Part shown: piece by piece, positions 22,842-44,839 of the stretch
Position numbering within the stretch: position 1 is the first letter of the stretch
Layout of the letters: each line of letters opens with the position of its first letter
Notes under the pieces: model-generated
The model's database searches: none
What the model was told of the DNA's origin: nothing
Seen by the model: the letters and a program-made list of their open reading frames with translations, nothing else
NCBI RefSeq assembly: GCF_018918095.1
Contig: NZ_JAHLPV010000020.1
Location: 1 to 46,498, forward strand
Reading direction: 5' to 3'
Source: Acetivibrio sp. MSJd-27
GTDB taxonomy: Bacteria > Bacillota > Clostridia > UMGS1840 > HGM11507
DNA length: 46,498 nucleotides
Translations under genes and position numbers: made by a program

Positions 22842-22856
22842 ACCTATCAACTCCTT

Positions 22857-24629: not shown

Positions 24630-24645
24630 TGTTTTCACTCCATTT

Positions 24646-25821: not shown

Positions 25822-26060
25822 TTTCATACGCTCCTTTTTCATTCTTTCGGAATCCATTACAAATAACGAACGGAACGGATCCTCCGCAAAGTCAGGCGGC
25901 AGTTGGATGTTTGTATGCCGCCAAACTCAAAACAGTATTTGGTTATTGTTTTTTCTGTTTTTTATTATAATTTATTCTTTTTCCTGTTGAAAGATGGAAA
26001 CTCTTCCCCATCGGTTGCTCATAAATTGATGTCCGGCCGCTTTCAAAAGCGAGGGCGCAA

Positions 26061-29000
26061 TTATCTCGGCCACACGCTGGAATCAAAGGTTGATTCATAG
26101 ATAGGACTTGTATAGATATAAACGGTCTGAGTCGTCTCATGCCAACCAATTCTTGCGCTGAAGCCATCGCAAACCGGACGGACAGGAACATAAAGCACTC
26201 CGCTGATTCGCTGCGCCGTCTCCGCCATTTGCACCTCTGTACCGTTAACCAGTACAGAGCTGCTTCCCTCTGAGATTTCGATTGCCGTATCCCCTTTTGT
26301 CAATAGAACTTTATTTCCGTTATCAGCCGCCTGTGCGCCGAGACTCTCCCCGAATAACAATGCAGGAGCGAGCACCGTTCCATTTATCATAACAGGAGGG
26401 CTTTCAAGACAGAGCGGTGTTCCCTCAACCCGGATACTCAGCTCTGTTGGCTTAATAACAGGTGTTCCGTTAAGATACAGATTGTAATCTCCGTTCTCAA
26501 AAGCAATGTGGAGTTTTTCTCCGGAAGCCGCCCACTTCAGCGGCATGGTTTTCACATCGTACTCCGGGCTGTTTTCCGGTTGCATGACAAATCCTTTTTC
26601 GTCAGCAATACTGCTGACCGAAACGGGAAGACTTAATCTCAGTTCGTTTGAATCCCCTTGCGCACGGTATCCCAGAGTCATATCCAAAGTATTGTCCTCC
26701 ACCGCAGATAAGTGCAGTCTGCCTTCCTCATATAAAACAGAGGATAGTTTCTCTGTCTTCGCCAGAACTATACCGTCTTTTATAAGACTGGTCCCATTTT
26801 GCAAAAGAAAGGTATTGTTGCCGAAGGCGCATAGCGTTCCGTCAAAGGTTACATTGTCGTAAGTTACCGCGCCCTCCTGCTTCAGTCGGACATAAACTGT
26901 CTGATCCCCGCCGATAGTAATCTTCATGCATTCTCCATTTTTCTCCGTCCGGATCTCTTTTTGTCCTTCCTCCGTTTTGTGGATGTCAAGAATGGATACC
27001 ATAACGGTTTCTTCCACTTTTTCAGTGTTGAAGTTAATAAAATACTGGTTCGGTTTTCCCGTAAGCTTTGAGCCCGGCAGGACCTCCTCCCGTGTTTCCG
27101 CTGTGATATATTTATCAAAACTTTCGATAGTGACATTTTCAGGATAAGCCATGGTTGCTACCAGCTCCGCTTTCCCCTGTCGGATCACCACCTGATTTTT
27201 TGACGCGTCAGTCTCAATAGGACTCATCGCGTGCAGATTATATGCAAAACTGGTCTGTTCCCCTTCCTTTGCCTTGAGCTCGTCAACCATAACAATAGCC
27301 GGAGCATTTTTCAAAAACACTGCACTCCTCACGGTTTTGCCAAGATTTCCTGCATACGCCCGGGTTGCATCCCCCGTCACACCGTCGAACACATTTCCGG
27401 TTACAAAACTTCCCATTTTCCCCTTTGCCAGTATATTTTCCTCCCCATTTAAAGGATTCAAATACTGTCCTAGAAGTCCGTTGTATGTGATTGCATTATG
27501 GGCGTGGGTTCTCTTGGTGTACCCCTTGTCATGAGCGCTGTAATAGTAATCATACCAACCGCTGTCGATTGCCAGCGGTTCCCCGTATGCATTGATGATA
27601 AAGCTGTTCTGATCCGCATGGGAATGGTTGTAGCTCCCGTACGGACTGGATTTGAACAGGAAAGATACCCTTTGCGGATCCACCAGATCGGTGTGCATCC
27701 CTGCCCAGCCTATGTCACGGAAAATACGGCCTGTTGGATAATCCAAAGGCGGAATTGCCGGCACCTCATCCTCAAAGTGGGCATAGTAGCTGATTTCCCC
27801 GTCGTAAGGTTTTACCCCTCGGGTCTGCGCGCCCCACTTCGCCACGGGATTTTTAAAAATGTGCGCCGCGGACAGATAATAGGTCACACAGGTGCTGTCC
27901 CTCCAGGAAACGATGTTGCCTTCATCGCCGAATGCTCCCGTGGGCGCACCGTTTGGAGTCATATACAGAGGAAACAGATATTCGTTGCGCGCGGCTGCTC
28001 TCTCGTATGTCTGAAATCCGGTTGCACTGTACAGCGCGTCCAGTGCCACGGCGCTAAAAGGACTGCTGGCGTAACTCCAGTATGCCGTGCCGTTGGCGAA
28101 ACCGCCGTCTTCTCCGCCCCATACCGGATAAATATTGATATATGCGGGATAAATGTTGCGGAACCACTCCTCTGCCTCGGGAATCTCATCCATCATAGCA
28201 AGCGAAATGATTCCCATAAAACCCGCTGCAGACCATCCGTGGGAATCAAAGGGGAGAATGTAAAGCGGAAATCCTCTCAAAAGCAGATTGTACATGATTT
28301 CAGTGCGCTCCTTCACCATTGCACGAACCGCTTCCTTCTGCTTGCTGTTCAGCAAATCATACACCCAGTCATAGGCAATGGCAGTCTTATAAGCAATTGC
28401 GCGGTGGACCTGATCCTGTACATGATAGTTGGTGTCACCGTAAACATCCCAGGCTGCAATACTCTCCATGAATTTTACAGCCTTTTCCCCGTATTGTTTA
28501 TCTCCGGTTACCAGATAAACAAAGGCCGCTTCAAACATTTCATTGACCTTGCCGTCACTGTAAGTACGCAGATTCCCCTGAGCGGTGACATATCCCGCTT
28601 CTCCGGGTTTGGACCCCTCCGGCGGGCTGAATACTGGTTCATCAGGAATCGGATTGTTCAGATTATCGTCCACTCTCTTCTTGATCGCCTGATAGAAATC
28701 CTTGGAGGGTCCGTCTGCAAGAGCACGGAATTCTGCAAGCTCATCGTTGTTTGTCCAGATTCTCGGATGATCCTTGCGCACTCTGCGGATCAATTCATCG
28801 GTTTCCGGCACAACAAAGGGCGTAGCGTCCTTTGAGATCCGGAAACGGCGGATCTTCGACCAATCCGACTGCCCGTTGATGCTTCTTCCGCGCACCCTCC
28901 AATACCAAATGCCGGTTCCCAGTGTTTCCGACATACTGTAATAGTTGTAAGGAATATCTTTAATTTCTTTTTCGATGACCGCCATATCCTTGTCCCTGGA

Positions 29001-29858
29001 CAGCTGCAAATCATAACTTTCTCCCAACGTGATGGCTGTCCAGCGGAAAAAAGGAGGATCCTGAAGAGTTGTCACCTTGTCCCGGGGAGAGAACCACAGG
29101 TTGAGTCCCCCGTTGTCCTCCTCAATTACCGGCGGTTCCAGCATACTGTCTGGCGTGCCGCTGTAAAACCGGACATCGTCAAAATACCAGACCGAGTTAA
29201 TATTGGTGCCGCTGCGCTGGATGACAACATCGCTGAATCCATCCTTCCATGCATCTTCTCCTAAAGGCATGTCTAAATTACTTGCCACCGGTCTGTCATT
29301 AAAATAGAAATCATATTTGCTGGTTTGCAGGTTCATCACAAACCGCAGTTTTAACCAGGTGTTGGTGTCATAGGGCTGGGCGAACTCCCGTGCTTCGGAA
29401 TCTCCTTGAACAGGAATCACAAAGCCCTCCTTCGTGATGGTAGCCAGCGCCGGCCATTTGCTGGTTACAGGCTGCCGCGGTCCTATTTTGAAATTTCCGT
29501 TCATGCTGGTGGCATAGATGGATATCTCAAAGGTGAGTATCTTAAAATTCGGGATCTGTTGCAGATACAGATTTGCAACCGAGCTGGTGCCCGCTCCAAC
29601 ATTGTTGATTGTAGCCTTTAAACTTTTGTTGGACGAGGAGGGGAAATCAGCTATCTCAAAGGTGGAGCCTATACCATTCACAGCTGTCCGGAATTCGGTG
29701 TAAGCAACTGTCTGTTCCCCTGTTTCATAAGAATTAAAATTTTCATCCAGCAAAATATATTTCCCATATACCTGGCTTATCAATCCGCCTGCAGGATATA
29801 TATTAAGCAGCATCATAGCGGCCAGAACATAAAAAAGGATTCTCTTGTACGGCTTCAT
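26061..29858 (-). CDS. heparinase II/III-family polysaccharide lyase
   Basis: A 1265-residue exported enzyme. Order: signal peptide (1-32), jelly-roll carbohydrate-binding-like domain (about 35-235), fibronectin-like domain (about 255-345), DUF4962-type alpha/alpha toroid (about 350-640) and heparinase II/III beta domain (about 705-900) with YNHSHADQNSF (743-753) and KRTHAHNAITYNG, the His/Tyr-rich catalytic region. After that come beta-rich stretches and a C-terminal copper-amine-oxidase-N-like domain (about 1150-1250, ending GVLYVPVRPVCDGFSARIGW). Relatives cleave uronate-containing polysaccharides such as alginate, heparin or bacterial exopolysaccharide by beta-elimination; the substrate here is not readable. 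The copper-oxidase-like module is often found in clostridial surface proteins. The ATG at 29858 follows AAAGGAG. It is central in the AraC-linked operon. Confidence 0.85.
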   Translation of the reverse strand: MKPYKRILFYVLAAMMLLNIYPAGGLISQVYGKYILLDENFNSYETGEQTVAYTEFRTAVNGIGSTFEIADFPSSSNKSLKATINNVGAGTSSVANLYLQQIPNFKILTFEISIYATSMNGNFKIGPRQPVTSKWPALATITKEGFVIPVQGDSEAREFAQPYDTNTWLKLRFVMNLQTSKYDFYFNDRPVASNLDMPLGEDAWKDGFSDVVIQRSGTNINSVWYFDDVRFYSGTPDSMLEPPVIEEDNGGLNLWFSPRDKVTTLQDPPFFRWTAITLGESYDLQLSRDKDMAVIEKEIKDIPYNYYSMSETLGTGIWYWRVRGRSINGQSDWSKIRRFRISKDATPFVVPETDELIRRVRKDHPRIWTNNDELAEFRALADGPSKDFYQAIKKRVDDNLNNPIPDEPVFSPPEGSKPGEAGYVTAQGNLRTYSDGKVNEMFEAAFVYLVTGDKQYGEKAVKFMESIAAWDVYGDTNYHVQDQVHRAIAYKTAIAYDWVYDLLNSKQKEAVRAMVKERTEIMYNLLLRGFPLYILPFDSHGWSAAGFMGIISLAMMDEIPEAEEWFRNIYPAYINIYPVWGGEDGGFANGTAYWSYASSPFSAVALDALYSATGFQTYERAAARNEYLFPLYMTPNGAPTGAFGDEGNIVSWRDSTCVTYYLSAAHIFKNPVAKWGAQTRGVKPYDGEISYYAHFEDEVPAIPPLDYPTGRIFRDIGWAGMHTDLVDPQRVSFLFKSSPYGSYNHSHADQNSFIINAYGEPLAIDSGWYDYYYSAHDKGYTKRTHAHNAITYNGLLGQYLNPLNGEENILAKGKMGSFVTGNVFDGVTGDATRAYAGNLGKTVRSAVFLKNAPAIVMVDELKAKEGEQTSFAYNLHAMSPIETDASKNQVVIRQGKAELVATMAYPENVTIESFDKYITAETREEVLPGSKLTGKPNQYFINFNTEKVEETVMVSILDIHKTEEGQKEIRTEKNGECMKITIGGDQTVYVRLKQEGAVTYDNVTFDGTLCAFGNNTFLLQNGTSLIKDGIVLAKTEKLSSVLYEEGRLHLSAVEDNTLDMTLGYRAQGDSNELRLSLPVSVSSIADEKGFVMQPENSPEYDVKTMPLKWAASGEKLHIAFENGDYNLYLNGTPVIKPTELSIRVEGTPLCLESPPVMINGTVLAPALLFGESLGAQAADNGNKVLLTKGDTAIEISEGSSSVLVNGTEVQMAETAQRISGVLYVPVRPVCDGFSARIGWHETTQTVYIYTSPIYESTFDSSVWPR

Positions 29859-29873
29859 ATACATTCTCCTTTC

Positions 29874-32558
29874 CTATTCATATAAAATGATATTTTGCAG
29901 AATCGAATAACTCCCCTGGATAAATACTCTGTCCCCTGGCTTCAAATCATTGATGGTGATTCTGCTCACCCTTCCGCTAGACTGATTGACTCTATAGAAA
30001 TATGGGGTGTTTTCAAGGCCATACGTTCTGTCCCATTGGGGATCGTTTAAGTCGTGGGCGTTTACCACAAGAGAAGCATTTGATTTATAGATCACTTCCC
30101 CGTATGCCGCATGGATTCCTCCTTGTATATAGTGGAGACCTGCATTGGCGCCGCTGACGGTTTCCCATAAATCCTTTCCGGAATCTCTGTTAAATACAAC
30201 TCGCAGCTCGTCAGTCAGTCCAAAAGAATTGACGCTGACCTGAATCACGTCTCCAGGCTTCAGATCCTTAAAGAAAACGCCGTTCCCCCAAACCTCGTCC
30301 AGATCTGCCAGCTCCCCGCTATATGCCGTCAGCTCGATTTTTTCCCCATTCTGATATCCATACAGCTTATAGGTTAGTTCTTCATTTACAAAACACTGCG
30401 CCACTTTTTCCACGATCGTCACCGGATCAGAGTAAATAATGTTGGAAGCTGCTGAATCGGAGGAAGATTTCATCAGCATAACCCTGCTGATATTGTCTCT
30501 GGTCAGACTGAAAAACTCTAGATTCTTATACTGTCTGTTGTTACTCAAATAGCCAATGTTATGGACGGAGTATTTTCTCTCATCACTGCTGTACGCTTCT
30601 GGAACTTTAAAAATAATGGTGCCTGCATTCACCCTGTATTTAGCACCAAAAATCCTGGCGTTCCCCGCCCTGTAATATAATCCGGCCTCCGGTGTTCTGT
30701 AATCCAAGGTAAATTCTTTTTCGTCGTCCTCGTTTTTTCTTCTTGTCTCATTGGATTTGTCTTCATAGGTATTCAGCTTTGTCAGCTGATTTTTCTGGTT
30801 GACTTCAAAGGTTATCAATTGCTGTACGGTTTTCTTATCCCCATCCATCAAACCGTTCTTCAAAAGAATGGGATCCTGCACCGCTTCCACCGACGGTCTC
30901 TGTGCCCCGCCGTTTAATGATATTTTCTCCGGTGCCTCGAAAATTTTCATTCCCTCCTGGGTCAATATTTTGAAGGAAATACTCTCGTCCAATCCTTCTC
31001 CGATACGGATTCCCATTAAAAAGCCATATTGCGGTCTATCTGACAATTTCTCATCTCGGCCTACAACTCTGCCTTGATAATCCAGGAAAAAAGGGCCTTT
31101 GTCGCCTACCTGGGGTACATAGGACAGCCCGCCGGTTACTTGATAGCGGGCTTCCCCCACCGTTATCCAGGTGAAACGTTCCTCCTCGACCTGATCAATA
31201 CTGCCTTCCAGAATTTCATTGCTGACATAGATAGTATATAAGGTTTTCTCTTTATTTTCCGCAACCGTCAAAACATCATTTTCCCGCAAGTCCTCCAATG
31301 ATATGGATACGCCGTCTCTCTGCAATCTGTATTCCACTTCCCATCCTTCCGGCTCCAAATCTAAGGCGTAATCACATTTTTTCAAATGAATCACGCTTTT
31401 GACACTGCTGACCGAATCCACCACAAAATTGACAAAGGAATGAACTAGAACCACTTCATAAGTCCCGTCCGTATCATTGTCTATAAACGTGACGCCGCCG
31501 ATTTCCGGCATCAAATCCGCATCGGTATAATACGGATATAATGTTCCATTATAGATCACCTCGATCTCGCCGGAATATTTTATTTCATAAATCTTATCCC
31601 GAACAGCGGCGTCTTTGACGTACCGGAAAACATTCTGCTGCACGCTTTCAATATCCTGCGCGTTCACCGAAACCGTCCGGTTATATTTTTCATCGGCATA
31701 AACATAGACAAGCTCTGGATCCCCGTCATTGTCCCGATAAAAGTAAGTAACCCGGTAACCGAGATAACCGTCGCCTTCCGTCTCACCGCAGGCATAACGG
31801 CTTCCGTCAATGCTGACATAGCCCTCCGATACCGAAGTTTGCTGACTGTGCAGACCGGTGTACTGATTTTCTTCCACTATCCCGCGTCCGGTATAGACAT
31901 CAAATATCATGGAGAGAAAATTGCTACCCTTTTCCAGCGAAATACTGCCGCCGCCAAAAGAATTTTGGGAAACAATCTCCACCTGCAAGGCATTAAACAG
32001 CAATAAAACCATATCCTCCCCGGTAACCTTGCTGCCAGAGCGCAGGTTCACCCCTTTTAAAAGTCCGCTGTCCTTTGCCGCAACCAGATACCCTGTAGGA
32101 TATCCTCCATCCCGCTGTGCATAGATATCGTATCCGAGAAGCTTCATCAAAGCTGCTGTGGCTTCCTCAAATAAAATCGGCTCATCCGGACGAAATGTGC
32201 CATCCCCATAGCCGCTTAGAATATGTAAGCGATACAGTGTATTGACAGCGTAAAAATCATCCCTGCCGCTTTCCATATCCATAAATACTGTATTTTTATC
32301 CGTCTGCCCCGTATTTTCCATGCCGCAAATACGGATAGCATATTTGCAAAACTGGCCTCTTGTCACTGTTTTCGCAGTATCGAAAGGCTGATTCTGAGAA
32401 TCTGTGACGATTCCCAGCTGCTTTAGCAATCCGAATTCATGGATAAAAGCCATCTCCGTTCCCCCCGGCTCTTGTTCTGCCAAAACCGGGGTGAAAGAAA
32501 CTGCAACGCTCAAACAGAGCAAAAGGATGATCCCTAATGCCCGCTTCCCCTTATTCAT
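29874..32558 (-). CDS. large SLH surface protein, first gene of the lyase operon
   Basis: 894 residues. A signal peptide (1-27, ending PVLAEQ) is followed by two or three SLH units near the N-terminus: FGLLKQLGIVTDSQNQPFDTAKTVTRGQF and FYAVNTLYRLHILSGYGDGTFRPDEP. A weaker third lies near GYLVAAKDSGLLKGVNL. From about 220 to the end there are many beta-strand motifs of the type DNDGDPELVYVYAD, FIDNDTDGTYEVVLVHSF and NDVLTVAENKEKTLYTIYV. This alternation reads as a long repeat-rich beta structure extending outward. AGAGGAGG precedes the ATG at 32558, and the next gene follows after 15 bp. It is the first gene of the operon, divergent from AraC. Its ligand or partner is unknown. Confidence 0.82.
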   Translation of the reverse strand: MNKGKRALGIILLLCLSVAVSFTPVLAEQEPGGTEMAFIHEFGLLKQLGIVTDSQNQPFDTAKTVTRGQFCKYAIRICGMENTGQTDKNTVFMDMESGRDDFYAVNTLYRLHILSGYGDGTFRPDEPILFEEATAALMKLLGYDIYAQRDGGYPTGYLVAAKDSGLLKGVNLRSGSKVTGEDMVLLLFNALQVEIVSQNSFGGGSISLEKGSNFLSMIFDVYTGRGIVEENQYTGLHSQQTSVSEGYVSIDGSRYACGETEGDGYLGYRVTYFYRDNDGDPELVYVYADEKYNRTVSVNAQDIESVQQNVFRYVKDAAVRDKIYEIKYSGEIEVIYNGTLYPYYTDADLMPEIGGVTFIDNDTDGTYEVVLVHSFVNFVVDSVSSVKSVIHLKKCDYALDLEPEGWEVEYRLQRDGVSISLEDLRENDVLTVAENKEKTLYTIYVSNEILEGSIDQVEEERFTWITVGEARYQVTGGLSYVPQVGDKGPFFLDYQGRVVGRDEKLSDRPQYGFLMGIRIGEGLDESISFKILTQEGMKIFEAPEKISLNGGAQRPSVEAVQDPILLKNGLMDGDKKTVQQLITFEVNQKNQLTKLNTYEDKSNETRRKNEDDEKEFTLDYRTPEAGLYYRAGNARIFGAKYRVNAGTIIFKVPEAYSSDERKYSVHNIGYLSNNRQYKNLEFFSLTRDNISRVMLMKSSSDSAASNIIYSDPVTIVEKVAQCFVNEELTYKLYGYQNGEKIELTAYSGELADLDEVWGNGVFFKDLKPGDVIQVSVNSFGLTDELRVVFNRDSGKDLWETVSGANAGLHYIQGGIHAAYGEVIYKSNASLVVNAHDLNDPQWDRTYGLENTPYFYRVNQSSGRVSRITINDLKPGDRVFIQGSYSILQNIILYE

Positions 32559-32695
32559 GTTGATTCCTCCTCTAAAAGTGTAACTTTCGGCTGTTTTTCT
32601 GTCTGTTTTCATTATAATTCTGAAAAGAATATTAGTAAATAGAGAAACCGAATTCTTTTATGTGATTTCTCAACATTTTTCCATTTCTGATTCAT

Positions 32696-33707: not shown

Positions 33708-34610
33708 CTAGATTCCCTCCCCGTCAAAAGGGGGAACAAAGCTTTCCTCCGCCGTTCCGCCCTCCTGAATAAATCCGTTTTCAATGCCCAGTTCCACCGC
33801 AAAATCAATGAGTTCCTCATATTCCTTCGAAGAAATGGTGCGGTTCAGTTCGGGGTACCGCTCCAGCCCCGCAAGAGGGGTGAACTGGTTCATAATGCTG
33901 TAGTAAATCTGATTGCCGTAAGTGTCAAACAGATAGCTTAAAATGTTCTTGGAATCGTCAAGCTGTCCCGGCAGTACCAAATGACGGACGATGAGTCCCC
34001 TTGTCATTCTTCTGTCCGCATCGAATGCGGGAAGTCCCGTCTGGCGGAACATCTCGGCTATTGCAGTTTTCACGACAGAGGGATAATCCGGCGCAGAGGA
34101 ATACTTCCGTGCCGTCCCGGCAGAGAAATATTTAAAATCCGGCAGATAAATGTCCACAAGCCCTTCCAGCATCCGAAGGGTTTCCACCCGCTCATAGCCG
34201 CTGCAGTTATAGACGATCGGCAGCTTTAACCCCTGTTCTTTCGCCAGAATAAGGGCTTCCCGAATAGGAGGAACAAAGTGTGACGGCGTGACGAGGTTGA
34301 TATTCTGCGCGCCCTTCTCTTTCAGTTCAAAAAAAATCTCCGCCAGCCGGTCGATACTGATTTCTTCTCCTGCTCTCCCTCTGGAGATCGCACGGTTCTG
34401 ACAGTATACACATCCCAGGTTACAGCCCGAGAAAAATATGGCGCCTGAGCCATTTTCTCCTGAGATACAAGGCTCTTCCCAAAAGTGCAGGGCTGCTCTT
34501 GCTGCCGTCAGCCTGCTTCCGGATTTGCAATATCCTTTCTGCCCTGCCTCCCGGTTCGCATGGCACATCCGGGGGCAGAGGGTACAGTCTTCCATCCAAT
34601 TTTTCTGCAT
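33708..34610 (-). CDS. PflX-like radical SAM protein
   Basis: 300 residues. FSGCNLGCVYCQNRAIS carries the radical SAM CxxxCxxC (Cys63, 67, 70). The N-terminus has a second Cys set, CTLCPRMCHANREAGQKGYC (9, 12, 16, 28), typical of the PflX/COG1313 group. The group resembles pyruvate-formate-lyase activating enzymes, but its substrate is unknown. NLVTPSHFVPPIREAL and YLPDFKYF are further family segments. I chose the ATG at 34610 although its ribosome site is modest (CAGG); the frame extends upstream to a TTG without support. It lies next to the kinase/PqqD cassette, separated from it by repeat copy 3, and may or may not belong to it. Confidence 0.82.
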   Translation of the reverse strand: MQKNWMEDCTLCPRMCHANREAGQKGYCKSGSRLTAARAALHFWEEPCISGENGSGAIFFSGCNLGCVYCQNRAISRGRAGEEISIDRLAEIFFELKEKGAQNINLVTPSHFVPPIREALILAKEQGLKLPIVYNCSGYERVETLRMLEGLVDIYLPDFKYFSAGTARKYSSAPDYPSVVKTAIAEMFRQTGLPAFDADRRMTRGLIVRHLVLPGQLDDSKNILSYLFDTYGNQIYYSIMNQFTPLAGLERYPELNRTISSKEYEELIDFAVELGIENGFIQEGGTAEESFVPPFDGEGI

Positions 34611-34703
34611 TTCCGATACCTGCCTGTTTTTATTTTGACAAAATGAAAAGGCTTTCGCAAAGCAAAAGCCGCCTAAAAAGTGCAAAACCCAGTGTGCAAT
34701 TCC

Positions 34704-34821: not shown

Positions 34822-36495
34822 TCAGGCATCCGTTCCATTCTCTTTTTTTATCTCCGCTTTGCCTTTTTCTAAATGAATCACATGATTACAAATCTCCAGA
34901 GCGGACGGCCGGTGAGAAACAATAAACAACGTTTTTGTTTTCCACTCTTTGATATGGTTTAAGATAGCTCGCTCCGTCTTCTCGTCCAGCGATGAGGTGG
35001 CCTCATCCAGAAGCAGAATGGGCGCGTCATGCAAAACAGCCCTTGCAATGGCAAGCCTCTGTACTTGCCCTTCGCTCAGTCCCAGTCCCTTTTCCCCCAA
35101 AACAGTATCAAATTTTTGGGGCAGCTGCATGATAAAATCATATATTTCAGCGGCTTTTGCCGCACGGATAATCTCCTCTTCCTTTGCCTCCTGATGAAAG
35201 AACACAATGTTCTCCCGAATGGTGCCGGAAAGAATCAAGTTTCCCTGCGGCACATAGGCAAACAGGGCTCTCGTCTCCCATCCGGCCTCCTGCGTTCCGG
35301 CATCGGACGTAAGCAAAACTTTCCCTTCCACAGGTTTCAGAACCCCTAGCAAAAGCTTCAAAAGAGTGCTCTTTCCAATGCCGGAAATACCTGTGATTGC
35401 AGTAAAATCTCCCTGTTTTACTGTCAGGTTTAAATCCTGCAGAACAGGTTCTTCTCCATAAGAGAAACTTAAATTTTCAAACCGGATCTCTTCCAATGCA
35501 TGGTATGTCCGATAGGATGCCTTTGCAGGGGCGTCCTGATTCAATTCCTCTAATTCGAGAAGCCGTTCCGCCGAAGCCAGAGCGGAATAGTACTGGGGAA
35601 GCAAAGCGGACATTCCGCGAAAAGGCGTTTGAATCTGGTTGACCAATTGAAGCATGAAAACCAGCGTACCATAAGACATTGCCCCCGCAAAAAGCTGGAA
35701 TGCTCCCCAGATCATTGCAAAATAGTAGCCTGCTGTAAACGCAAGGGAAGTGAATATATTAGCAATAATGCTTATAGTATTGCGCTTCATTTTCAGCCTG
35801 AAATTCTTTTCCTGAAGGTCGGAGGAATAATTTGTGACTTCACTCTCGTTACGGAAAGCTTTCACCGCCAGGATATTCTGAAGAGCCTCCTGCATAAAAG
35901 AGCGGGTTTTCCCTTCACTCTCCTGGCACATCTTATGTAATCTTTTCATTCGCTTGCTGTATATTCTTGTAAATCCCATAAAAAGAAGCCCGAAAACCAG
36001 ATAAAACGCCAGAAACAGGGGCTGTTCCCACAGCAGCAGAGCGGCCGCGGCTCCCAGCCTTGTGACGAAGGACAGCAGAGTGGGGAGAATCCCCACCACC
36101 GCACTTGTGATAATCGAAATATCCGATGTAAGGCGGTTCATCAAATCCCCGGAATGCATTGCGGTGACCTGTGTCAGATCCTTGCACAGCAAGCTGCTGA
36201 AGACAGTTTTCCTCAGCTTTATTTCCAGTTTTCCCGAAACACGCACATTCAGATAGCTGTAGGAAACCTGCAAGAGCAACAGGGTTCCCACCAAAGCAGC
36301 CACCGAAACAGCTTTCGCGGCAAGACTGCCGCTCAGCTGCCCCACAGCCGTATCAATCAGCTCCCTGGACAAAACCGCAAAAGAAACGGAACACATGGAC
36401 ATGGCAAAACTGATAGCGCATAAAAGGATCAGCGGAAAAAGAATAAATTTGGAATGGATACAAATCCAGCGGAAGGCGTTTTTGTTTCTTTTCAC
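34822..36495 (-). CDS. ABC exporter, fused permease and ATPase
   Basis: A 557-residue half transporter. Residues about 15-300 are a six-helix ABC membrane domain. The ATPase has Walker A GISGIGKST (369-377), signature LSEGQ (473-477), Walker B ILLLDE (493-498) and the H-loop His (528). There is no peptidase C39 domain at the start, so leader cleavage must be done by another protein if the cargo is a peptide. The start is GTG at 36495, after GAGGAG, and overlaps the stop of the protease gene by 4 bases (GTGA). Last gene of the kinase/PqqD/protease cassette; exporting the product of that cassette is the obvious role. Confidence 0.93.
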   Translation of the reverse strand: MKRNKNAFRWICIHSKFILFPLILLCAISFAMSMCSVSFAVLSRELIDTAVGQLSGSLAAKAVSVAALVGTLLLLQVSYSYLNVRVSGKLEIKLRKTVFSSLLCKDLTQVTAMHSGDLMNRLTSDISIITSAVVGILPTLLSFVTRLGAAAALLLWEQPLFLAFYLVFGLLFMGFTRIYSKRMKRLHKMCQESEGKTRSFMQEALQNILAVKAFRNESEVTNYSSDLQEKNFRLKMKRNTISIIANIFTSLAFTAGYYFAMIWGAFQLFAGAMSYGTLVFMLQLVNQIQTPFRGMSALLPQYYSALASAERLLELEELNQDAPAKASYRTYHALEEIRFENLSFSYGEEPVLQDLNLTVKQGDFTAITGISGIGKSTLLKLLLGVLKPVEGKVLLTSDAGTQEAGWETRALFAYVPQGNLILSGTIRENIVFFHQEAKEEEIIRAAKAAEIYDFIMQLPQKFDTVLGEKGLGLSEGQVQRLAIARAVLHDAPILLLDEATSSLDEKTERAILNHIKEWKTKTLFIVSHRPSALEICNHVIHLEKGKAEIKKENGTDA

Positions 36496-36950
36496 TTTAT
36501 TATTCTCCTCAGTTTGAGCGCGGCGGACAGCAGTGCGGGGCGAAGCGGACGCACCGCACACCACAAAACAGTATACAGACGGTATGAAAGACTCTTGATG
36601 GAACACATTTTCCCTTTTCGCTGAAACGCTTCTACTGCTCCCAGTATCTGCCCGGGATAAACCGGGTATTCCAGCCTTGTCTGATTATCGCCGCACAGAA
36701 AAAAGGCACCGTCCCTGCCAGCGACGATCCGGTGCAGAATACAGGCGCCGTTTTCCCTTCTGTAAAATATAATGTCGTATTTGCGATAGGATTCTTTTTT
36801 AGACAGAACAACACTGTCCCGCTTGCTGGAAAAAAGGGGAAACATACTGTTTCCCACCACAGTAAGGCGAACCTTTTTCCCGGAACGCAGACATTCCTCC
36901 ATGATGGGACTGAGTTCTGTGATATGTTTCAGCAGAAATTCGTTTTTCAT
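36492..36950 (-). CDS. Ser/His signal-peptidase-like (S24/S26) protein
   Basis: 152 residues. VVGNSMFPLF (31-40) is the Ser-containing box of S24/S26 peptidases, with Ser35 as nucleophile. DIIFYRRENGACILHRIV (59-76) supplies His73 where SipW/ER-type signal peptidases have His in place of the Lys of classical bacterial enzymes. CGDNQTR (86-92) matches the later GD box. A weakly hydrophobic segment follows at about 120-145. SipW-type enzymes process exported substrates. In a RiPP-like setting it could remove a leader peptide, which is inference. Its start and stop overlap the neighbours by 4 bases each, so all four genes of the cassette are coupled. Confidence 0.8.
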   Translation of the reverse strand: MKNEFLLKHITELSPIMEECLRSGKKVRLTVVGNSMFPLFSSKRDSVVLSKKESYRKYDIIFYRRENGACILHRIVAGRDGAFFLCGDNQTRLEYPVYPGQILGAVEAFQRKGKMCSIKSLSYRLYTVLWCAVRPLRPALLSAALKLRRIIK

Positions 36951-37213
36951 TCTTCCAGTGCTTTGATCGCCCGGATTTCATCCAAAAACGCCGTGATATC
37001 CTCGCGGGCAGTCTTCTCATCTACATCGTATTCCTTTTGGAGCTCTGCCAGCAGTTCTTCAAAGGTTCTGTCCTCCTCCAGCAGCCGCCAGAGAAAAACG
37101 CCGGTTTCATTCAAGGTAATCATCCCATCAAAATCCACCAAAATAGAACTGACTGGAATTACCACAAAACTGCCTGCAATTTCTTTTAACAAAAATTCCT
37201 GGTTGACTCTCAT
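36947..37213 (-). CDS. PqqD-like RiPP recognition element protein
   Basis: An 88-residue stand-alone PqqD-family protein. After an N-terminal beta part (VVIPVSSILVDFDGMITLNETGVFLWRLL) comes the helical half with RTFEELLAELQKEYDVDEKTAREDITAFLDEI. LNETG-x2-LW and EYDVD are strong family features. PqqD domains bind the leader peptide of ribosomally made, modified peptides (PQQ, lasso peptides, sactipeptides and others) and hand it to the modifying enzyme. It lies between the kinase gene upstream and the protease gene, overlapping each by 4 bases (ATGA), which suggests that the three act together. No precursor peptide gene is evident nearby. Confidence 0.92.
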   Translation of the reverse strand: MRVNQEFLLKEIAGSFVVIPVSSILVDFDGMITLNETGVFLWRLLEEDRTFEELLAELQKEYDVDEKTAREDITAFLDEIRAIKALEE

Positions 37214-38088
37214 TTCTTTTCTCCTATCCGCAACGTATTTTTTACCATCTGCACGGCTTCCTCATCCGGCCTGCATCCCAGCAAATAGCAGGGAACCTGC
37301 TTAAGAAGCCCGTCGGCCGTATCAAGAGCAATATCTGCCATATCGCGGTATGGATATACCGCAATCTCCCGCAGCAACCGGAATACAGCCTCCTGCGGCT
37401 TCAATTCACTGATCCGGTTCTCCTTCGCCTGCTCCAGAAAAACGACAGCACGCAAAGGTACATGTATATTTTCATTGATCTCTGTCTTCCCGCTCCAAGG
37501 CGTTCCACAGATATGTGGTCTCCCATCTACAAAGGTAACCGCCGGAGAATCGTCGTTGACAACGGTAACCCTATCACCAAAACACTTCTTCCACAGTCTG
37601 GTATGGGTCGATTTTCCGGTTCCGGACGGAGCAGAGAACAGAATTCCATCCCCGCCAAAAGCAATGGAGGAGGAATGCACCACCAACCCTCCGTGTAACG
37701 TCAGCGCCATTCTAAAAATTTCTCCTGTCATATTAAAACAGCGAACATCAACCGGGGCCCCGCCCAGCATTTCCACATCCCGTATCACCGCCTGTACCTC
37801 ACGAAACCCCGGATCTGCCGTCATAAGCGCCGTACGGTTTTCGGTATTCTCCAGCCGGTCGAAATTGACATATCCGCCCTCTTTTGTCAAAAGATAAGTG
37901 CGATACCCCATTCTCTGCCCAATTAAATCTCCTTCCGGTTCAAAAATTTCCTCCTGTTCGGAGAAGGAAATCTTCAAATCTGGCACTACAGCCTCTTTTA
38001 CACGGTATTGTTCCATCCTTCTCAGAAAAAAGGGGTAATTTATATTTTCAACCCAGACAGAAAGCCCGGCAATACAGTAGTTCGGCAT
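37210..38088 (-). CDS. HPr kinase-like (lasso-kinase-type) protein
   Basis: 292 residues. The second half resembles HPr kinase/phosphorylase and the related kinases of lasso-peptide clusters: GGLVVHSSSIAFGGDGILFS, P-loop APSGTGKSTH (153-162), DD at 179-180 in VVNDDSPAV, and CGTPWSGK (194-201). The first 120 residues are poorly conserved and may bind the substrate. It lacks the N-terminal domain of true HprK, and no HPr-system gene is near, so it is not the catabolite-control enzyme. Paeninodin-type lasso kinases phosphorylate the precursor C-terminus; the same may hold here. It is the first gene of the cassette, with AAAGGAG before the ATG and a clear promoter. Confidence 0.88.
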   Translation of the reverse strand: MPNYCIAGLSVWVENINYPFFLRRMEQYRVKEAVVPDLKISFSEQEEIFEPEGDLIGQRMGYRTYLLTKEGGYVNFDRLENTENRTALMTADPGFREVQAVIRDVEMLGGAPVDVRCFNMTGEIFRMALTLHGGLVVHSSSIAFGGDGILFSAPSGTGKSTHTRLWKKCFGDRVTVVNDDSPAVTFVDGRPHICGTPWSGKTEINENIHVPLRAVVFLEQAKENRISELKPQEAVFRLLREIAVYPYRDMADIALDTADGLLKQVPCYLLGCRPDEEAVQMVKNTLRIGEKK

Positions 38089-38120: not shown

Positions 38121-38149
38121 ATTATAACAAGATTAAAACACTTTTGCAA
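38121..38149 (-). promoter_or_regulatory. main promoter of the kinase/PqqD cassette
   Basis: On the minus strand TTGCAA (38144-38149), a 17-bp spacer and TATAAT (38121-38126), about 35 bp upstream of the kinase start. The -35 sits inside a small hairpin (ACTTTTGC-CTT-GCAAAAGT) that could attenuate transcription arriving from further upstream. Confidence 0.75.
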
Positions 38150-38246: not shown

Positions 38247-38275
38247 GTTATAATATACACCAAATGTTTTGTCAA
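38247..38275 (-). promoter_or_regulatory. possible second, upstream promoter
   Basis: TTGACA (38270-38275), a 17-bp spacer and TATAAC (38247-38252) on the minus strand. A transcript from here would run through two GC-rich hairpins (around 38180-38245) and the attenuator-like hairpin before the kinase gene. A small leader RNA is possible. I found no ORF with a ribosome site in this leader. Confidence 0.5.
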
Positions 38276-38397: not shown

Positions 38398-40005
38398 ATG
38401 TTAAAAAAGGCAATATCCTACATACTCAGCATCGGCATTTTACTCACTGCCGTTTCCATTCCTGCTGCAGCAGAGATAAGTTTTTCTGACTTGGGCAGCA
38501 GCCACTGGTCCTATGAATCCGTCTCAAAGCTGGTGAACGACGGAACCATCAGCGGTTATGAGGACGGCACTTTCCGCCCGGACAACACTGTCACAAGAGC
38601 GGAATTTGTCAAAATGATCGGAAAAGGTCCTGACAAACGGGAAACCGATTTTTCCGATGTGCCGAAAGACCATTGGGGATATGAATATATCATGTATTCC
38701 GGACTCAAAGGCAGCGGCAACAATTTTGAGCCGGACAGGCCTATCACCCGCGGTGAGACAGCAGAGCTTCTCTGGAGCCGTGCCGGCGAGAAAAAAGGCG
38801 AGATTGCGCCTTCTATTATCACCGAACAGTCTGCGAACCAGGATGCTGCCGCATGGCTTTACAACAACAGCATTATGATTGGAAACGACGGAGTGGACCT
38901 TCGGCTTGGAGACACCCTTTCCCGCGCGGAAGCCGCCGCTCTGATCATCCGTTCCAGAGAGACGGACGGTTCCTCCAGAACAAGCTTCAGCCAAGCCATT
39001 TCCGATGAGGTTGCCAAAACGGTATTCACCAGCATGAAGCTGTTCGACAATAAAGAATACAATCCGGACAAAACCGTGACAAACGGCGAGTTGGCCAGAG
39101 CGGCACTTCGACTGGCCAGTGAAGAATACAACCTGACATACAGCGCTTTTCCGATCGCTTCTCAGCTGGAGCATACCTATGGAAGAGACATCACCATTAT
39201 CGGCAAGGAGTGCCTTGGGGAGGACAAGATTACAGCCGCCTTTGCGGATCAGACAGCCAACAAAAAAGACGCTGTCTGCGCTCTGGTATACGGCATGATC
39301 AAAAAATCTCACGCTACCGTAAGTCTTGGAAATATTGACAACTACTATAAAGATCTGTCCGGCATCGGAAAGGACAAAACCAATGTTATCCTGACCTATG
39401 CCTACACCAACGGAATTCAGCTGTTTGACGGCGGAAATATCAAGGGGGAGGAAGCAGTCACCCTGAAAGAAATCAGTGCTATTCTGATTCAGCTGGAAAA
39501 CATCTGCGGTTCCCAGACAATCTACTCCACCGAGAAGAATGACAGAAACCGCTATATTGCCAAGGACAGCAAAATTTCTTACGACCTTGCCTCCTATCCA
39601 TCGTCAAAGGATAAATACCAATATATTTTGAAGGATGTTCCGAATGCCGTGTACAATGCGCCAATCGCTTTCACGGGCAGTGCTGAAAAATTTGGATTGC
39701 CCCGGCTGAACTTTGACTTCGCAAGAGAATTCTCCGATATGTTCCTCGCTCAGCTGGATAAAATTGTCGCTGCCGGACAGGACAAGTTCGGGGTTACCCT
39801 GCGCTTTGAATATTACCCCAGCCTCGTCTTTGACAACGGACAGGGCTTCACTATCCGCACAAAATGCATTGTGCTGGACAATCCGAAAAACGTCAGTTAT
39901 CAGGATCTATTCGGCGATCAGAAACTGACGGACGATATTCCCGCCGTACCGGCCAGCGGCTCAGAATTTTTCGTGGATATTAAGACCAGCTATGTTCTTT
40001 TTTGA
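38398..40005 (+). CDS. SLH surface protein
   Basis: 535 residues. A signal peptide (1-25, ending PAAAE) is followed by three SLH units: FSDLGSSHWSYESVSKLVND with GTISGYEDGTFRPDN, FSDVPKDHWGYEYIMYSGLK, and a third ending GNDGVDLRLGDTLSRAEAAALI. A weaker repeat follows at about 205-250 (DNKEYNPDKTVTNGELARAAL). The C-terminal part (about 380-535) is an unrecognised globular domain. The ATG at 38398 follows a GGGGG site; the frame is open upstream but unsupported. Its stop codon lies inside repeat copy 4. Confidence 0.88.
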   Translation: MLKKAISYILSIGILLTAVSIPAAAEISFSDLGSSHWSYESVSKLVNDGTISGYEDGTFRPDNTVTRAEFVKMIGKGPDKRETDFSDVPKDHWGYEYIMYSGLKGSGNNFEPDRPITRGETAELLWSRAGEKKGEIAPSIITEQSANQDAAAWLYNNSIMIGNDGVDLRLGDTLSRAEAAALIIRSRETDGSSRTSFSQAISDEVAKTVFTSMKLFDNKEYNPDKTVTNGELARAALRLASEEYNLTYSAFPIASQLEHTYGRDITIIGKECLGEDKITAAFADQTANKKDAVCALVYGMIKKSHATVSLGNIDNYYKDLSGIGKDKTNVILTYAYTNGIQLFDGGNIKGEEAVTLKEISAILIQLENICGSQTIYSTEKNDRNRYIAKDSKISYDLASYPSSKDKYQYILKDVPNAVYNAPIAFTGSAEKFGLPRLNFDFAREFSDMFLAQLDKIVAAGQDKFGVTLRFEYYPSLVFDNGQGFTIRTKCIVLDNPKNVSYQDLFGDQKLTDDIPAVPASGSEFFVDIKTSYVLF

Positions 40006-40116: not shown

Positions 40117-40692
40117 ATGAATTCAAGACACCATACCGGCTTTGGAATCCTGGGAACCTGTATTCGAATCATTTCCATTCTGATATTGATTCTGGCAAAC
40201 AAGCATCTTGGGGGCATGAAATACAATTTTTATTGGCATGTCGCTGTTCCCGTGGCTGTCTCTCAATTGCTCGCCGCCCTGTACGCCTTTAATTATGCCA
40301 AACACGGGCGATACGGGAAAACCCTTAATATGTTCGCCAAGCAGTTTTGTGTGATCTCCCTACTGGTCACCCTGATTGTGTTTTTGGACAGGGATATGCA
40401 GATTTTTGCGATTACCCAGTGTATTTATGCTCTTCTTTACACTGCTCTTATTTGGTATATTTCCAGCTATGTGTTTGAGAATGTGCAGAAACGAGGAAAA
40501 ATCAATATCACAAAAAGCTTTTTGATTTTATCCATCCCAGTGTTTCTGCTAGCCCCTGTCGTATATTACTTTGGCCAGAAGGAATGGATGCAGCTCTGCT
40601 TTTCTCTGGGGTATTGCTTTCTGTTTATCAGTCTTTCCACTCTGTTCAGTTTGGTCAGATACCGGAGGAAATCGGGTAAAAAGAAAAGTTAA
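40117..40692 (+). CDS. integral membrane protein, unrecognised
   Basis: 191 residues with about six hydrophobic segments (around 10-28, 42-60, 74-90, 98-120, 132-150 and 156-178) and a basic C-terminus. AGGAG, supplied by repeat copy 4, lies 10 bases before the ATG. I do not recognise the family. The composition is like that of small membrane proteins of unknown function in Clostridia. It follows the SLH gene in the same direction and may be co-transcribed through the repeat. Confidence 0.7.
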   Translation: MNSRHHTGFGILGTCIRIISILILILANKHLGGMKYNFYWHVAVPVAVSQLLAALYAFNYAKHGRYGKTLNMFAKQFCVISLLVTLIVFLDRDMQIFAITQCIYALLYTALIWYISSYVFENVQKRGKINITKSFLILSIPVFLLAPVVYYFGQKEWMQLCFSLGYCFLFISLSTLFSLVRYRRKSGKKKS

Positions 40693-41071: not shown

Positions 41072-44000
41072 CTATTCAAAATCTCCGTTTCTGTGTTCCA
41101 ATGTAGCAATAACAATTTCATAGTATGCCCAATGGGAAGGAGATATGTCTTTGAGTGGAAGTGAATAGTTCCCAATATTCTTATCGATCTTTTCTTTATC
41201 CGGCACTCTGCCGCTCAGCAGATTGATCACCTTAACCGCTTCCGCGCGGGTGATTGTCCCGTCCGGGCGGAAGGTTCCGTCTTCATAGCCTCTTACATAC
41301 CCAGCACTGCTTAACGCTGTGATATATCCGTTTGCCCAATGCCCTTTGCTGTCGGAAAACGCACTGCCGTTTTCTGTGTTATCCAGCTTCAGATATTTGG
41401 CTATCAGCGCTGCAAACTCCGCTCTGCTCATCTGGTTGTCCGGGCGGAAGGTTCCGTCTTCGTAGCCGGAGATAAACTGGTTCTGTGCGGCAAAGCCCAC
41501 ATATTTTTCATACCAGCAGCCGCCCGGCACATCGGAAAAACCGTTGGCATAATACTGGCTTATCTGGAATTTTTCCGATATCTTTGCCAGCAGCGCAGTG
41601 ACCTCCGCACGGGTAACCGCATTGTCGGGACGGAAGGTTCCATCCTCATAGCCATTGATATAGGCTGCCTTTCTCGAACCGCCGTTATTTCCGTTCACCA
41701 CCGTACCTGTTGAAGAATCCGTATTACTGCCGGACGGCTTCTTTTCCTTAAGGATGGTTATAGTATATTCCACTGGTTCAAACAGAGCACTTTGCGGGAT
41801 GACGGTCACCTTAACTACGTTGTTCCCCGTTTTCACACTGCTTAGTGAATAGACGCCGTCACCGCGGACGGAATCGCCATTCCAAAGCACTTCAATCGAG
41901 GCGTTTGCATCATTTGCAGAAGCGATCAGCTTCAGTTTTTCGACGGTGTAGGGAACCGTTACGCGGTATGCGTTTTCGCCGCTTGCCGCTTTCTTTGTGT
42001 ATCCCTGGATTTCCAGCGTTTTTAAGGTGTTTGCCGTATTGCTCTCCTCCGGCCAGGGAGCGATTGTTACCCCAAACATTTCTTCTATCTTCTCAGCCGC
42101 TTCCGTATAAGTCAAAGCGACTTCCGGATATTCCAGTTCAATATCATTTCCGATGGCTTTTATCTCGGTTCCATCCAGCGTATCCGTGTTGCCGAAACAG
42201 TTTCTGCTCTGTCCGTATCCCTCTCCAAAGATACCATCAAAGGTACCGCAGAAACCGCCGTTCCAGCTCCATCCCGGCGACAGGATTCCTGTGCTGATAC
42301 AATCCTGCATAACGGCAGAGGAAGCGCCGGCGAAGCCGCCGAAGTAGTTTCCGCCTTTTTTATCTGTTGCAATCACGTTGCCGGTGGAATAGCAGCTTGT
42401 AATGGTCGAATAAACCGTGCTGGATCCCACAAAGCCTCCAGTGGAATACGCACCGTTCACCTCACCGGTAGCATAGGAATTGGTGATCTGTTCAAAGTTG
42501 CTTCCAACCAGACCGCCTGTGGTGTTCTCCCCGGTCACCTTTCCGTCCGCATGAGAGAGGTTGATAATGCCGCGGTTGAAACCGACCAAACCACCCACAT
42601 GACCAGTGCTTCCATTCACTGTCACATTTGCGGAACAATTTTCAATCACGCCATAAATATAGCTGCTGTAATCGGTTCCCGGAATGGTGTTGTTGCCGTC
42701 ATTAAAGCCAACCAAGCCTCCGGCACGGGTTGCTTTGATGATCGGTTCCCCTATCCCGGTCACTTTACCGGAAACGTGACAGTTTGCAATCAAAGAGCCT
42801 TCCTTTGCATAACCGCAAAGAACACCAACCTGTCCCCCTGCGGTAATATCCGCATCTTTTATCGTCACATTCAGGATTTTTGCCCTGTCAATCACGCCAA
42901 ACAAGCCGATGTTGTATTCTTCCGTCTCCATTCTTAATCCGGAAATCGTCTTGCCGTTTCCGTCAAACGTTCCAGCAAAGGGAGTATCCTGTGTTCCGAT
43001 TGGGGTATCCTGTGTTCCTTTTAAAGCAATGTCGTTCTCCAGACGGAATGCCGCAGAGGGATGCTGTATCACATTGGTCAAATCCTCCGCCGTCTTAATC
43101 AGATATGGATCGGAAGATATACCAGTTCCCTCGAAATATTCGCTTTCCGCCCCAATTTCTGTACCGTTCAATTCTGCCCAGGACGGTCCCTGATAGTTGT
43201 TCGCGGAAGTTCCGTAGAACCAGATTACCTGATCCCCGGCTTTAATGGTAGTGCTGTCAGCACTGCTGCTGGGGCTGATCCCATTGACCATAAACATCCA
43301 GCCGTCATTGCCGCCAGCCGCCTTTCCATTGATGGATTTGACATAAACACCGTAGCTGCTGGGCTCGGCCTCATAGGGAATTCCAGCGCTGTCCAGGGCT
43401 CCCAGCACGGATAAACCAAATTCACTCTGGTCGGAGACGGTCAATTCATCAAACAGATTCATCTTCACAAAACGATAGCTTTGATAGTCCGCCACCGCCA
43501 TCTTCAATTGGACGGTTTGCTCCGGAGGAGCGGCAACAGCCGGTTCATTGGAGACGAGATAAGGATATTTGCTGTTCAAATTATTCCTCCGCGCCCAAAC
43601 ATCCGCCTCTGTATTCAAGAGCGCAGTGAAAGCATCCGATTGCATCTCATCTGTTGTTTTCACAGTGATCCCATCCGATGCACCGTTTCCAACCGCAGCG
43701 GAAAATGTAGATTGATTATAATATGTATTCCGGATATCGCCGCCCAGCCGGTTTCCGATGAATCCGCCGGCATTTTCTCCAGTACAGGTGAGGTTTCCAG
43801 TGCTGAAACAATTCTCCAGGCTGCCGCCGGCCATTCTTCCGATAAAGCCGCCGGCTTCCTTCAGGGCTTTTACATCCCCTAAGCTGTAACAGTTTTTTAT
43901 CGCGCTTCCTTCTATGTCCTCCATCGCACCGGCAAATCCACCGATCCGCCCAGCGAAAGGTTTTTCCGGGACAACATTCACCTTTGCGGTGGAAAAACTG

Positions 44001-44665
44001 GATTCAATCAGCCCCGGTGAACTCACATATCCGTTCACGCCTACAAAACCGCCGTAATTGGTGGAGGTGGTTTCCGGCAAGCTTACCATGCTGTTTTCAC
44101 CGTCCACAAAACAGTTGCGCACGGTACCCATATTTTTACCGATTAAGCCTCCGATACAGGAGCCTTTTCCGGATACCGTGGTGTTTATTACGCCGCTGTC
44201 CGTCACCGTACCTCCATCGTTCACCCCAATTAGAGTGCCGACGCTTCCATCTGTGCCGGAAACAGAGGCTTCTGTCAGCGTGACGCCGGTTACCGTTCCT
44301 CCCAGAATATAGCCAAACATGCCCGAGAACTCTGTGCTGACAGCTATCTTCAGATTGGAGATCGTCTTGCCGTTTCCGTCAAAAGCTCCCGTGAAAGGAG
44401 CCCTTGCGGAACCGCTTTTGGTCTTACTGTTGCCAATTGGTTTTAACATCTTTCCAGCAGATGCGTCCGTCGTCTGCGTCATGTCAATGTCGCTGCCCAG
44501 AATGAAACTTCCACCCCATCTGCTTGGATCATTGGAAAGCAGGATGAGCTCATCCGCTGTGCAGATGATTTCCGGCATCTCTGCAGAGACAAAATTTACG
44601 CTCAGACCAAACACCATTGTTAGCGCAATCAAAAGGCTCAGCAGCTTTTTCCCATTTGTTTTCAT
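41072..44665 (-). CDS. GLUG / DUF4430 / SLH surface protein
   Basis: 1197 residues. Order: signal peptide (1-28); GLUG-type beta-helix repeats (about 85-330, for example GGFIGRMAGGSLENCFSTGN); a DUF4430 or transcobalamin-like domain (about 385-485, VYVKSINGKAAGGNDGWMFM, then VNGISPSS); a second GLUG block (about 525-800); a cadherin-like beta-sandwich (about 905-985); and three SLH units, each with GYEDGTFRPD. DUF4430 resembles the C-terminal beta domain of eukaryotic transcobalamin. Because a cobalamin riboswitch lies in the leader, the protein probably binds or displays corrinoid at the wall; that is inference. AGAAGGAGG precedes the ATG at 44665; the frame extends upstream into the riboswitch and is not translated there. 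Confidence 0.9.
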   Translation of the reverse strand: MKTNGKKLLSLLIALTMVFGLSVNFVSAEMPEIICTADELILLSNDPSRWGGSFILGSDIDMTQTTDASAGKMLKPIGNSKTKSGSARAPFTGAFDGNGKTISNLKIAVSTEFSGMFGYILGGTVTGVTLTEASVSGTDGSVGTLIGVNDGGTVTDSGVINTTVSGKGSCIGGLIGKNMGTVRNCFVDGENSMVSLPETTSTNYGGFVGVNGYVSSPGLIESSFSTAKVNVVPEKPFAGRIGGFAGAMEDIEGSAIKNCYSLGDVKALKEAGGFIGRMAGGSLENCFSTGNLTCTGENAGGFIGNRLGGDIRNTYYNQSTFSAAVGNGASDGITVKTTDEMQSDAFTALLNTEADVWARRNNLNSKYPYLVSNEPAVAAPPEQTVQLKMAVADYQSYRFVKMNLFDELTVSDQSEFGLSVLGALDSAGIPYEAEPSSYGVYVKSINGKAAGGNDGWMFMVNGISPSSSADSTTIKAGDQVIWFYGTSANNYQGPSWAELNGTEIGAESEYFEGTGISSDPYLIKTAEDLTNVIQHPSAAFRLENDIALKGTQDTPIGTQDTPFAGTFDGNGKTISGLRMETEEYNIGLFGVIDRAKILNVTIKDADITAGGQVGVLCGYAKEGSLIANCHVSGKVTGIGEPIIKATRAGGLVGFNDGNNTIPGTDYSSYIYGVIENCSANVTVNGSTGHVGGLVGFNRGIINLSHADGKVTGENTTGGLVGSNFEQITNSYATGEVNGAYSTGGFVGSSTVYSTITSCYSTGNVIATDKKGGNYFGGFAGASSAVMQDCISTGILSPGWSWNGGFCGTFDGIFGEGYGQSRNCFGNTDTLDGTEIKAIGNDIELEYPEVALTYTEAAEKIEEMFGVTIAPWPEESNTANTLKTLEIQGYTKKAASGENAYRVTVPYTVEKLKLIASANDANASIEVLWNGDSVRGDGVYSLSSVKTGNNVVKVTVIPQSALFEPVEYTITILKEKKPSGSNTDSSTGTVVNGNNGGSRKAAYINGYEDGTFRPDNAVTRAEVTALLAKISEKFQISQYYANGFSDVPGGCWYEKYVGFAAQNQFISGYEDGTFRPDNQMSRAEFAALIAKYLKLDNTENGSAFSDSKGHWANGYITALSSAGYVRGYEDGTFRPDGTITRAEAVKVINLLSGRVPDKEKIDKNIGNYSLPLKDISPSHWAYYEIVIATLEHRNGDFE

Positions 44666-44693
44666 AAGTATCCTCCTTCTTCTTTTCAAACAG

Positions 44694-44731
44694 CAAATAA
44701 AAAGAGCCCTGACTTTACAGACAGAGCTCTT
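44694..44731 (-). terminator. riboswitch-linked terminator
   Basis: On the minus strand, AAGAGCTCTG (44722-44731) pairs with CAGGGCTCTT (44702-44711) with one wobble, followed by TTTTTATTT. It lies between the cobalamin aptamer and the start codon and is the likely expression platform. Confidence 0.85.
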
Positions 44732-44839
44732 GATCTCAACAAATGGAATAACAGAAAACATCCTGTTTTTTCGCTGAAAACCGTAAACTACACCCTTCAT
44801 ACACTGTGAAGCCATAGCATCCCGAAACGCATCGAACCC

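Follow-up and report, generated by a model that had tools for sequence, protein, structure and literature searches.

A gene cassette of the linear polyphosphorylated peptide kind in a Clostridia genome, probably serving precursor peptides encoded elsewhere

Gene content and layout of the cassette

The stretch of DNA analysed here (the window, 46,498 nt) is contig C20 of the 3.05-Mb, 104-contig genome of Acetivibrio sp. MSJd-27 (G000), and it carries on its minus strand four genes coding for a kinase, a PqqD-like protein, a peptidase and an ABC exporter. As known here from the genes alone, this cassette is quite probably a maturation and export set for ribosomally synthesized and post-translationally modified peptides (RiPPs) of the linear polyphosphorylated peptide (LPP) kind, which acts in trans on precursors encoded elsewhere. 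The first gene (37210-38088) codes for a predicted HprK/PEPCK-fold, LppK-like peptide kinase of 292 aa with the P-loop SAPSGTGKST and an NDD motif, and upstream of it on the same strand lies a sigma-70-type promoter-like site (38121-38149, TTGCAA-17-TATAAT with extended TG), which is a consensus match only. It is followed by genes for an 88-aa discrete RiPP recognition element (RRE) of the PqqD fold, LppB-like (36947-37213; Pfam PqqD, E=3e-19), a 152-aa LppS-like putative leader peptidase with a SipW/LexA fold and a Ser-His-Asp triad (36492-36950), and a 557-aa LppD-like exporter of the MsbA/MDR type (34822-36495; Pfam ABC_membrane and ABC_tran). The first-pass annotation of this DNA had reported four genes overlapping by 4 bases at every junction; all open reading frames (ORFs) were found at the places it gave, on the minus strand, and each of the three overlaps (37210-37213, 36947-36950 and 36492-36495) was confirmed. 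The exporter ORF starts at a GTG that overlaps the peptidase stop, the listed 594-aa ORF being an upstream extension, and the exporter has no peptidase domain.

The order kinase-PqqD-peptidase-ABC is kept in all four genomes of the window's family, and variant forms are found again across Clostridia, so the arrangement is not due to chance. The kinase is single-copy and intact in 9/9 genomes of the order. In a sister family, the kinase is found at one locus and the RRE-peptidase-ABC set at another; there, the kinase and its neighbouring gene for a surface-layer homology (SLH) protein are accompanied by genes for an acyltransferase-like protein, a PHP-domain protein and YebC, and five loci (L070, L076, L077, L079 and L082) contain genes for Wzz, a BY-kinase-like ATPase and CpsB followed by the RRE-peptidase-ABC set. 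Four loci from larger genomes (L069, L074, L075 and L085) have an NTP_transf_5 (LppN-like) gene after kinase-RRE-peptidase-ABC and, upstream of the cassette, precursors that are very short (31-40 aa) and acidic. At a further locus, L083, a 184-aa membrane-anchored Thr/Pro-rich protein (6613-7167) is inserted between RRE and peptidase, and two near-identical 39-aa precursors lie upstream of the kinase.

Key residues of the kinase, the recognition element and the peptidase

By its P-loop and NDD motif the window kinase can be assigned to the HprK-like class: the Gly and Lys of the P-loop, and likewise the Asn and last Asp of NDD, are present in 33/33 kinases of related loci. The nearest NCBIfam models, ScmC and HprK_rel_A, both scored below their cut-offs and Pfam gave no match; when the PDB was searched by sequence, neither the kinase nor the peptidase profile gave a match. 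The RRE profile matched the LppB structure PDB 9x8z (E=1e-6), and also 9x90 PbaB1, TbiB1 and TfuB1. RRE residues N35 and D72 are the counterparts of LppB N33 and D70, the readers of the YxxP leader motif; the reader Asn is kept in 38/41 cassette RREs and the reader Asp in 37/41. Pfam gave only a weak S24/SPase I match for the peptidase. Its triad S35/H73/D88 corresponds to S29/H68/D93 of LppS, and triad and GxSMxP motif are present in 44 of 44 cassettes. No transmembrane segment was found in the peptidase, which is thus predicted to be soluble, and its AlphaFold2 (AF2) model (pLDDT 74.5) matched LexA, SipA and SpsB. The SipW-like Ser/His protease proposed in the first pass is therefore borne out by the triad and by a LexA/SipA-type fold model.

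Comparison with the published LPP class

The LPP class was published in May 2026 from Bacilli (Popov et al., Nat Commun 2026, PMC13381572), the reference being the lpp locus of Paenibacillus alginolyticus DSM5050 (PMC13381572). Its set consists of the kinase LppK, the RRE LppB, the SipW-like peptidase LppS, the exporter LppD, the NTP transferase LppN and the precursor LppA, which carries the motif YxxPxVLxHQxIxFETxxS and also Px9Fx[T/A] (PMC13381572). Core Ser3 is polyphosphorylated by LppK, cleavage by LppS after Thr-1 needs LppB, and LppB N33 and D70 fix Pro-13 and Tyr-16 of the leader (PMC13381572). LPPs were known in 2026 only from compact Bacilli gene clusters, with a role unknown (PMC13381572).

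The HprK-like kinase, the discrete YxxP-reading RRE, the SipW-like peptidase and the MsbA-like exporter are all in the window cassette, which has no cyclase; an NTP transferase is present in the genome, relatives show association with capsule loci, and the candidate precursors described below are short, with a Y(-16)xxP(-13) leader, a hydrophobic residue at -11 and an acidic one at -2. The enzyme set is thus the published LPP set and not itself new, contrary to the new architecture suggested by the first-pass annotation. The systems differ in that precursors and LppN are unlinked from the cassette here, with up to 17 dispersed precursors per genome that mostly adjoin secreted-protein genes; leaders in Clostridia lack HQxIxFET and cores lack the conserved Ser3; an SLH partner is constant beside the kinase; and the system occurs throughout the order (9/9 genomes) and not patchily, and in Clostridia instead of Bacilli. 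The single LppN-type gene (PF14907) of the genome lies in a polysaccharide locus (G000:C11), and the window cassette itself has none. Since two features that define the published clusters, a linked canonical precursor and a linked LppN, are both absent here, we filed the system as an LPP variant. The trans-acting layout, the divergent leader and the SLH and secreted-protein partners appear new: no description of such a layout and surface-protein pairing was found in the literature searched, and nothing was found on RREs with SLH proteins and related themes.

Candidate precursor peptides

No precursor-like ORF was found anywhere in the window, and the first-pass statement that no precursor is visible therefore holds for the window; it is untrue for the genome, where two unlinked candidate copies were detected. 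Comparing all small ORFs around 50 cassette loci with one another gave a conserved family of 31-65 aa YxKP peptides, often located directly before the kinase, between a secreted protein and the kinase, and with this family the recurrence of the cassette with one conserved small ORF, for which the first pass had proposed a search, was found. The peptides follow the pattern MK-x-Y-x-K-P-x-[I/L/V]-E-[V/I]-x-x-[F/L/I]-x3-[E/D]-x-I-[A/T] and gave nothing significant against Pfam and NCBIfam. When aligned on the Pro, their leaders share with LppA the Tyr, the Pro, a hydrophobic residue at P+2 (V-11 of LppA) and an acidic residue at P+11 (E-2 of LppA). The candidates in the genome itself are a 54-aa peptide beginning MKKYVKPELEMKKFVSNETIAAG... 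(G000:C7:50652-50816, E=1.4e-5) and a 49-aa peptide beginning MKYERPVIGIRPFYSEEPIAAG... (G000:C24:16140-16289, E=2.2e-5), each detected by a separate profile that was not trained on the copy. The C7 copy is preceded by TTGACA/TATAAT and AAAGGAGG and followed by a terminator-like hairpin; the gene for a 979-aa secreted protein begins 41 nt downstream of the C24 copy. Both peptides are, by their sequences, putative substrates of the cassette.

Co-occurrence of peptide and peptidase

Co-occurrence was assessed in 391 Clostridia genomes, with the peptidase called at E<1e-20 (88 genomes). The peptide was found in 56 of the 391 genomes; these 56 span 22 families, and 53 of them also had the peptidase (Fisher p=6e-38, in a test that ignores shared ancestry). 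Among held-out genomes, from which the suppliers of training peptides had been removed, the peptidase was present in 25/28 peptide-positive genomes versus 34/334 of the others (p=3e-19, ancestry again ignored). The three peptide-positive genomes lacking the peptidase include one that is 65% complete. Peptide matches outside the class occurred in only two genomes of a phylum-wide sample.

Dispersed copies and their secreted-protein partners

Several genomes contain many copies of the peptide gene: 17 in G002, which belongs to the window's family, nine in G025 and seven in G216. Thirty-six of 46 examined copies lie -30 to +60 nt after a gene on the same strand, usually at 10-25 nt. By a crude heuristic, a signal peptide was present in 25 of the 28 partners whose N-terminus is complete, versus 37/152 background genes (p=8e-11). 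At least four of the 46 copies (L176, L205, L208 and L212) are near an SLH/kinase locus, so that "unlinked" holds for most copies and not for all. At L139 (G002:C8:1-16500), a unit made of a very large GLUG-like secreted protein and, 18 nt later, an almost identical 47-aa precursor occurs three times, suggesting that the pair duplicates together. Taken with the copy numbers, these pairings suggest a single machine shared by many surface-protein partners.

Many partners in G002, as well as the secreted neighbour of the C24 peptide, carry a C-terminal YGI...RPYAVY...YG domain. The window itself encodes a 340-aa secreted protein with a YGI...YYTRPYAVY C-terminal domain (21828-22850, minus strand), which resembles the "X" proteins beside the cassettes of relatives and has no adjoining precursor peptide; a constant pairing of this domain with the peptide was rejected on that account.

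The SLH partner of the kinase

Divergent to the kinase gene lies a gene for an SLH-domain surface protein of about 535 aa (38398-40005, plus strand, counted from the ATG at 38398; the longest ORF starts at 38269). It is the most constant neighbour of the kinase, which it adjoins in every genome of the order (9/9), and a profile of its C-terminal part, which is conserved end to end, marks a partner at 21 of 33 kinase loci from several families. This new domain was detected in 39 of the 391 Clostridia genomes, 36 of them with strong matches, and 32 of these 36 have the peptide (p=2e-27, ancestry ignored). It belongs to no Pfam family, and PDB gave only weak SLH-like matches, none at E<=0.001; one portion of its AF2 model (pLDDT 88.8) resembles extra SLH repeats.

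Proposed mechanism and alternative explanations

The reading that we favour, an LPP-kind set working in trans, is built on findings made directly here: which genes are present, the catalytic and reader residues, co-occurrence across genomes, and the adjacency of precursor and secreted-protein genes. The PqqD-like RRE would recognize YxxP in a precursor of 49-54 aa and bind it, the HprK-like kinase would phosphorylate a Ser or Thr of the core (the phosphosite being a prediction), the RRE would present the leader to the cytosolic Ser-His-Asp peptidase for a cut expected near E-x-I-A, and the linear phosphopeptide would leave through the ABC exporter. Phosphorylation, RRE-dependent cleavage and the RRE-leader structure have been shown for the Bacilli homologue only (PMC13381572). 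This sequence of binding, phosphorylation, cleavage and export is well supported by homology, and for the window's own proteins we infer it by analogy. The first-pass idea of a peptide that is phosphorylated, cleaved and exported thus matches the LPP class of Paenibacillus (PMC13381572) and carries over to the window as a prediction. The product is probably a cell-surface component, as the SLH partner, the secreted partners and the polysaccharide neighbours suggest; it would work with the SLH protein, with the secreted proteins whose genes lie beside most of the precursor genes and possibly with envelope polysaccharide.

Several points weigh against this reading. The Fisher tests are blind to ancestry, and 35 of the 88 peptidase-positive genomes have no detected peptide, including G001 of the window's family. 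A scan of 50 loci for the canonical LppA motif (FETxxS) gave one chance match only, and the core Ser3 position is not conserved in the peptides (S/T in 22% at P+15). The invariance of Tyr and Pro arises partly by construction, because a Y..P pattern was used to choose the seed sequences, and the peptide models are short. There is no secreted protein next to the C7 copy, and even for Paenibacillus the end product of the LPP pathway is not known (PMC13381572).

One may ask whether the peptidase and exporter instead handle the processing and secretion of a surface fibre protein, in the way SipW acts on TasA/CalY, with RRE and kinase in a regulatory role and the peptides as bystanders. The Ser-His-Asp SipW/LexA-like fold, the secreted X proteins between ABC and kinase in many loci and the SLH protein adjoining the kinase would fit this scheme. 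Unlike SipW, however, the window peptidase is soluble, without a membrane segment, and RRE-associated, its predicted substrate is a small leader peptide and the related LppS is an RRE-dependent leader peptidase; moreover, the peptides track the peptidase across the 22 families and bear the RRE-type YxxP motif, for which the RRE keeps its reading residues. We therefore regard the fibre-protein explanation as unlikely. Slightly less likely still is an envelope-polysaccharide module in which the kinase phosphorylates a sugar or lipid carrier, the exporter flips a glycolipid and the RRE survives only as a vestigial scaffold. In its favour, five genomes of the order have RRE-peptidase-ABC flanked by Wzz, BY-kinase and CpsB, at L011 and L068 the SLH gene has Wzz-like proteins beside it, and the LppN-like gene sits in a polysaccharide locus, but an intact leader-reading RRE and a leader-peptidase fold make little sense without a peptide, and published LPP sets are also located in capsule loci, yet still modify peptides (PMC13381572). 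The first-pass annotation had named an HPr or carbohydrate partner of the kinase as evidence against a peptide role; neither an HPr nor a sugar-catabolism partner was observed, but the polysaccharide-locus genes Wzz, BY-kinase and CpsB do recur in relatives.

The likeness to lasso-peptide loci such as paeninodin, also pointed out in the first pass, stands as far as the HprK-like kinase, the PqqD RRE, the ABC exporter and an NTP transferase are concerned, and the sharing of kinase, PqqD and ABC genes can be read from published gene lists (PMC13381572). A lasso locus that has degenerated by losing cyclase and leader protease is very improbable and was rejected: the transglutaminase-like B2 protease (PF13471), rightly noted as missing, is absent from the whole genome, the RRE has Asn35, not the Gly of paeninodin, at the LppB N33 position, RRE and candidate peptides belong to the YxxP type, not to WxxP, the kinase is intact and single-copy throughout the order, and the set is complete for LPP. 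An asparagine-synthetase-like cyclase, lacking in the cassette, was not found among the Pfam-scanned neighbours, a genome-wide search for it not having been made. SynChlorMet (ScmC/ScmD) and HprK_rel_A/B systems likewise combine HprK-like and PqqD-like proteins; the window proteins score below the cut-offs (ScmC 43.7 versus 125 bits, ScmD 25 versus 100 bits), and the window set has a SipW-like peptidase and no linked radical-SAM pair.

Within the LPP-type reading, we tentatively propose, as a possibility short of an even chance, that one genome-wide cassette modifies a whole set of dispersed peptides, every one of them produced together with a secreted or surface protein of its own, and that the phosphopeptide is a mature part of that protein or a tether for it, joining it to the SLH-anchored envelope or its polysaccharide. 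If true, the pathway would serve peptide-based surface display or wall attachment and not the making of an antibiotic. LPP-type machinery is in any case widespread in Clostridia, with candidate precursors that are divergent, unlinked and often numerous and would be missed by neighbourhood-based genome mining. Among RiPPs, it would be unusual for a single modification system to serve as many as 17 dispersed substrates, and the pairing of peptide with secreted protein and of kinase with SLH protein leads to the testable idea that the peptides may serve the cell surface.

Other genes in the window

Directly downstream of the exporter lies a gene for a radical-SAM protein (33708-34685, minus strand) of the PflA/NrdG type; it was set aside as a modifying enzyme, its match being PflA/NrdG-like and the gene not being conserved beside the cassettes of relatives. 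The SLH gene is followed by one for a multi-transmembrane protein (40117-40692, plus strand), which has apparent homologues beside the SLH/kinase genes of the other three family genomes, a homology judged by eye, with BLAST clustering only two of the loci. On the minus strand, a 1247-aa SLH protein with GLUG repeats, a DUF4430 and a cadherin-like domain is encoded at 41072-44815. A run of genes for large secreted proteins at 22857-32612, also on the minus strand, forms an envelope/polysaccharide-degradation island beside the cassette, including two SLH proteins, an unassigned secreted protein and a heparinase II/III-like (DUF4962) protein with Cu_amine_oxidN1.

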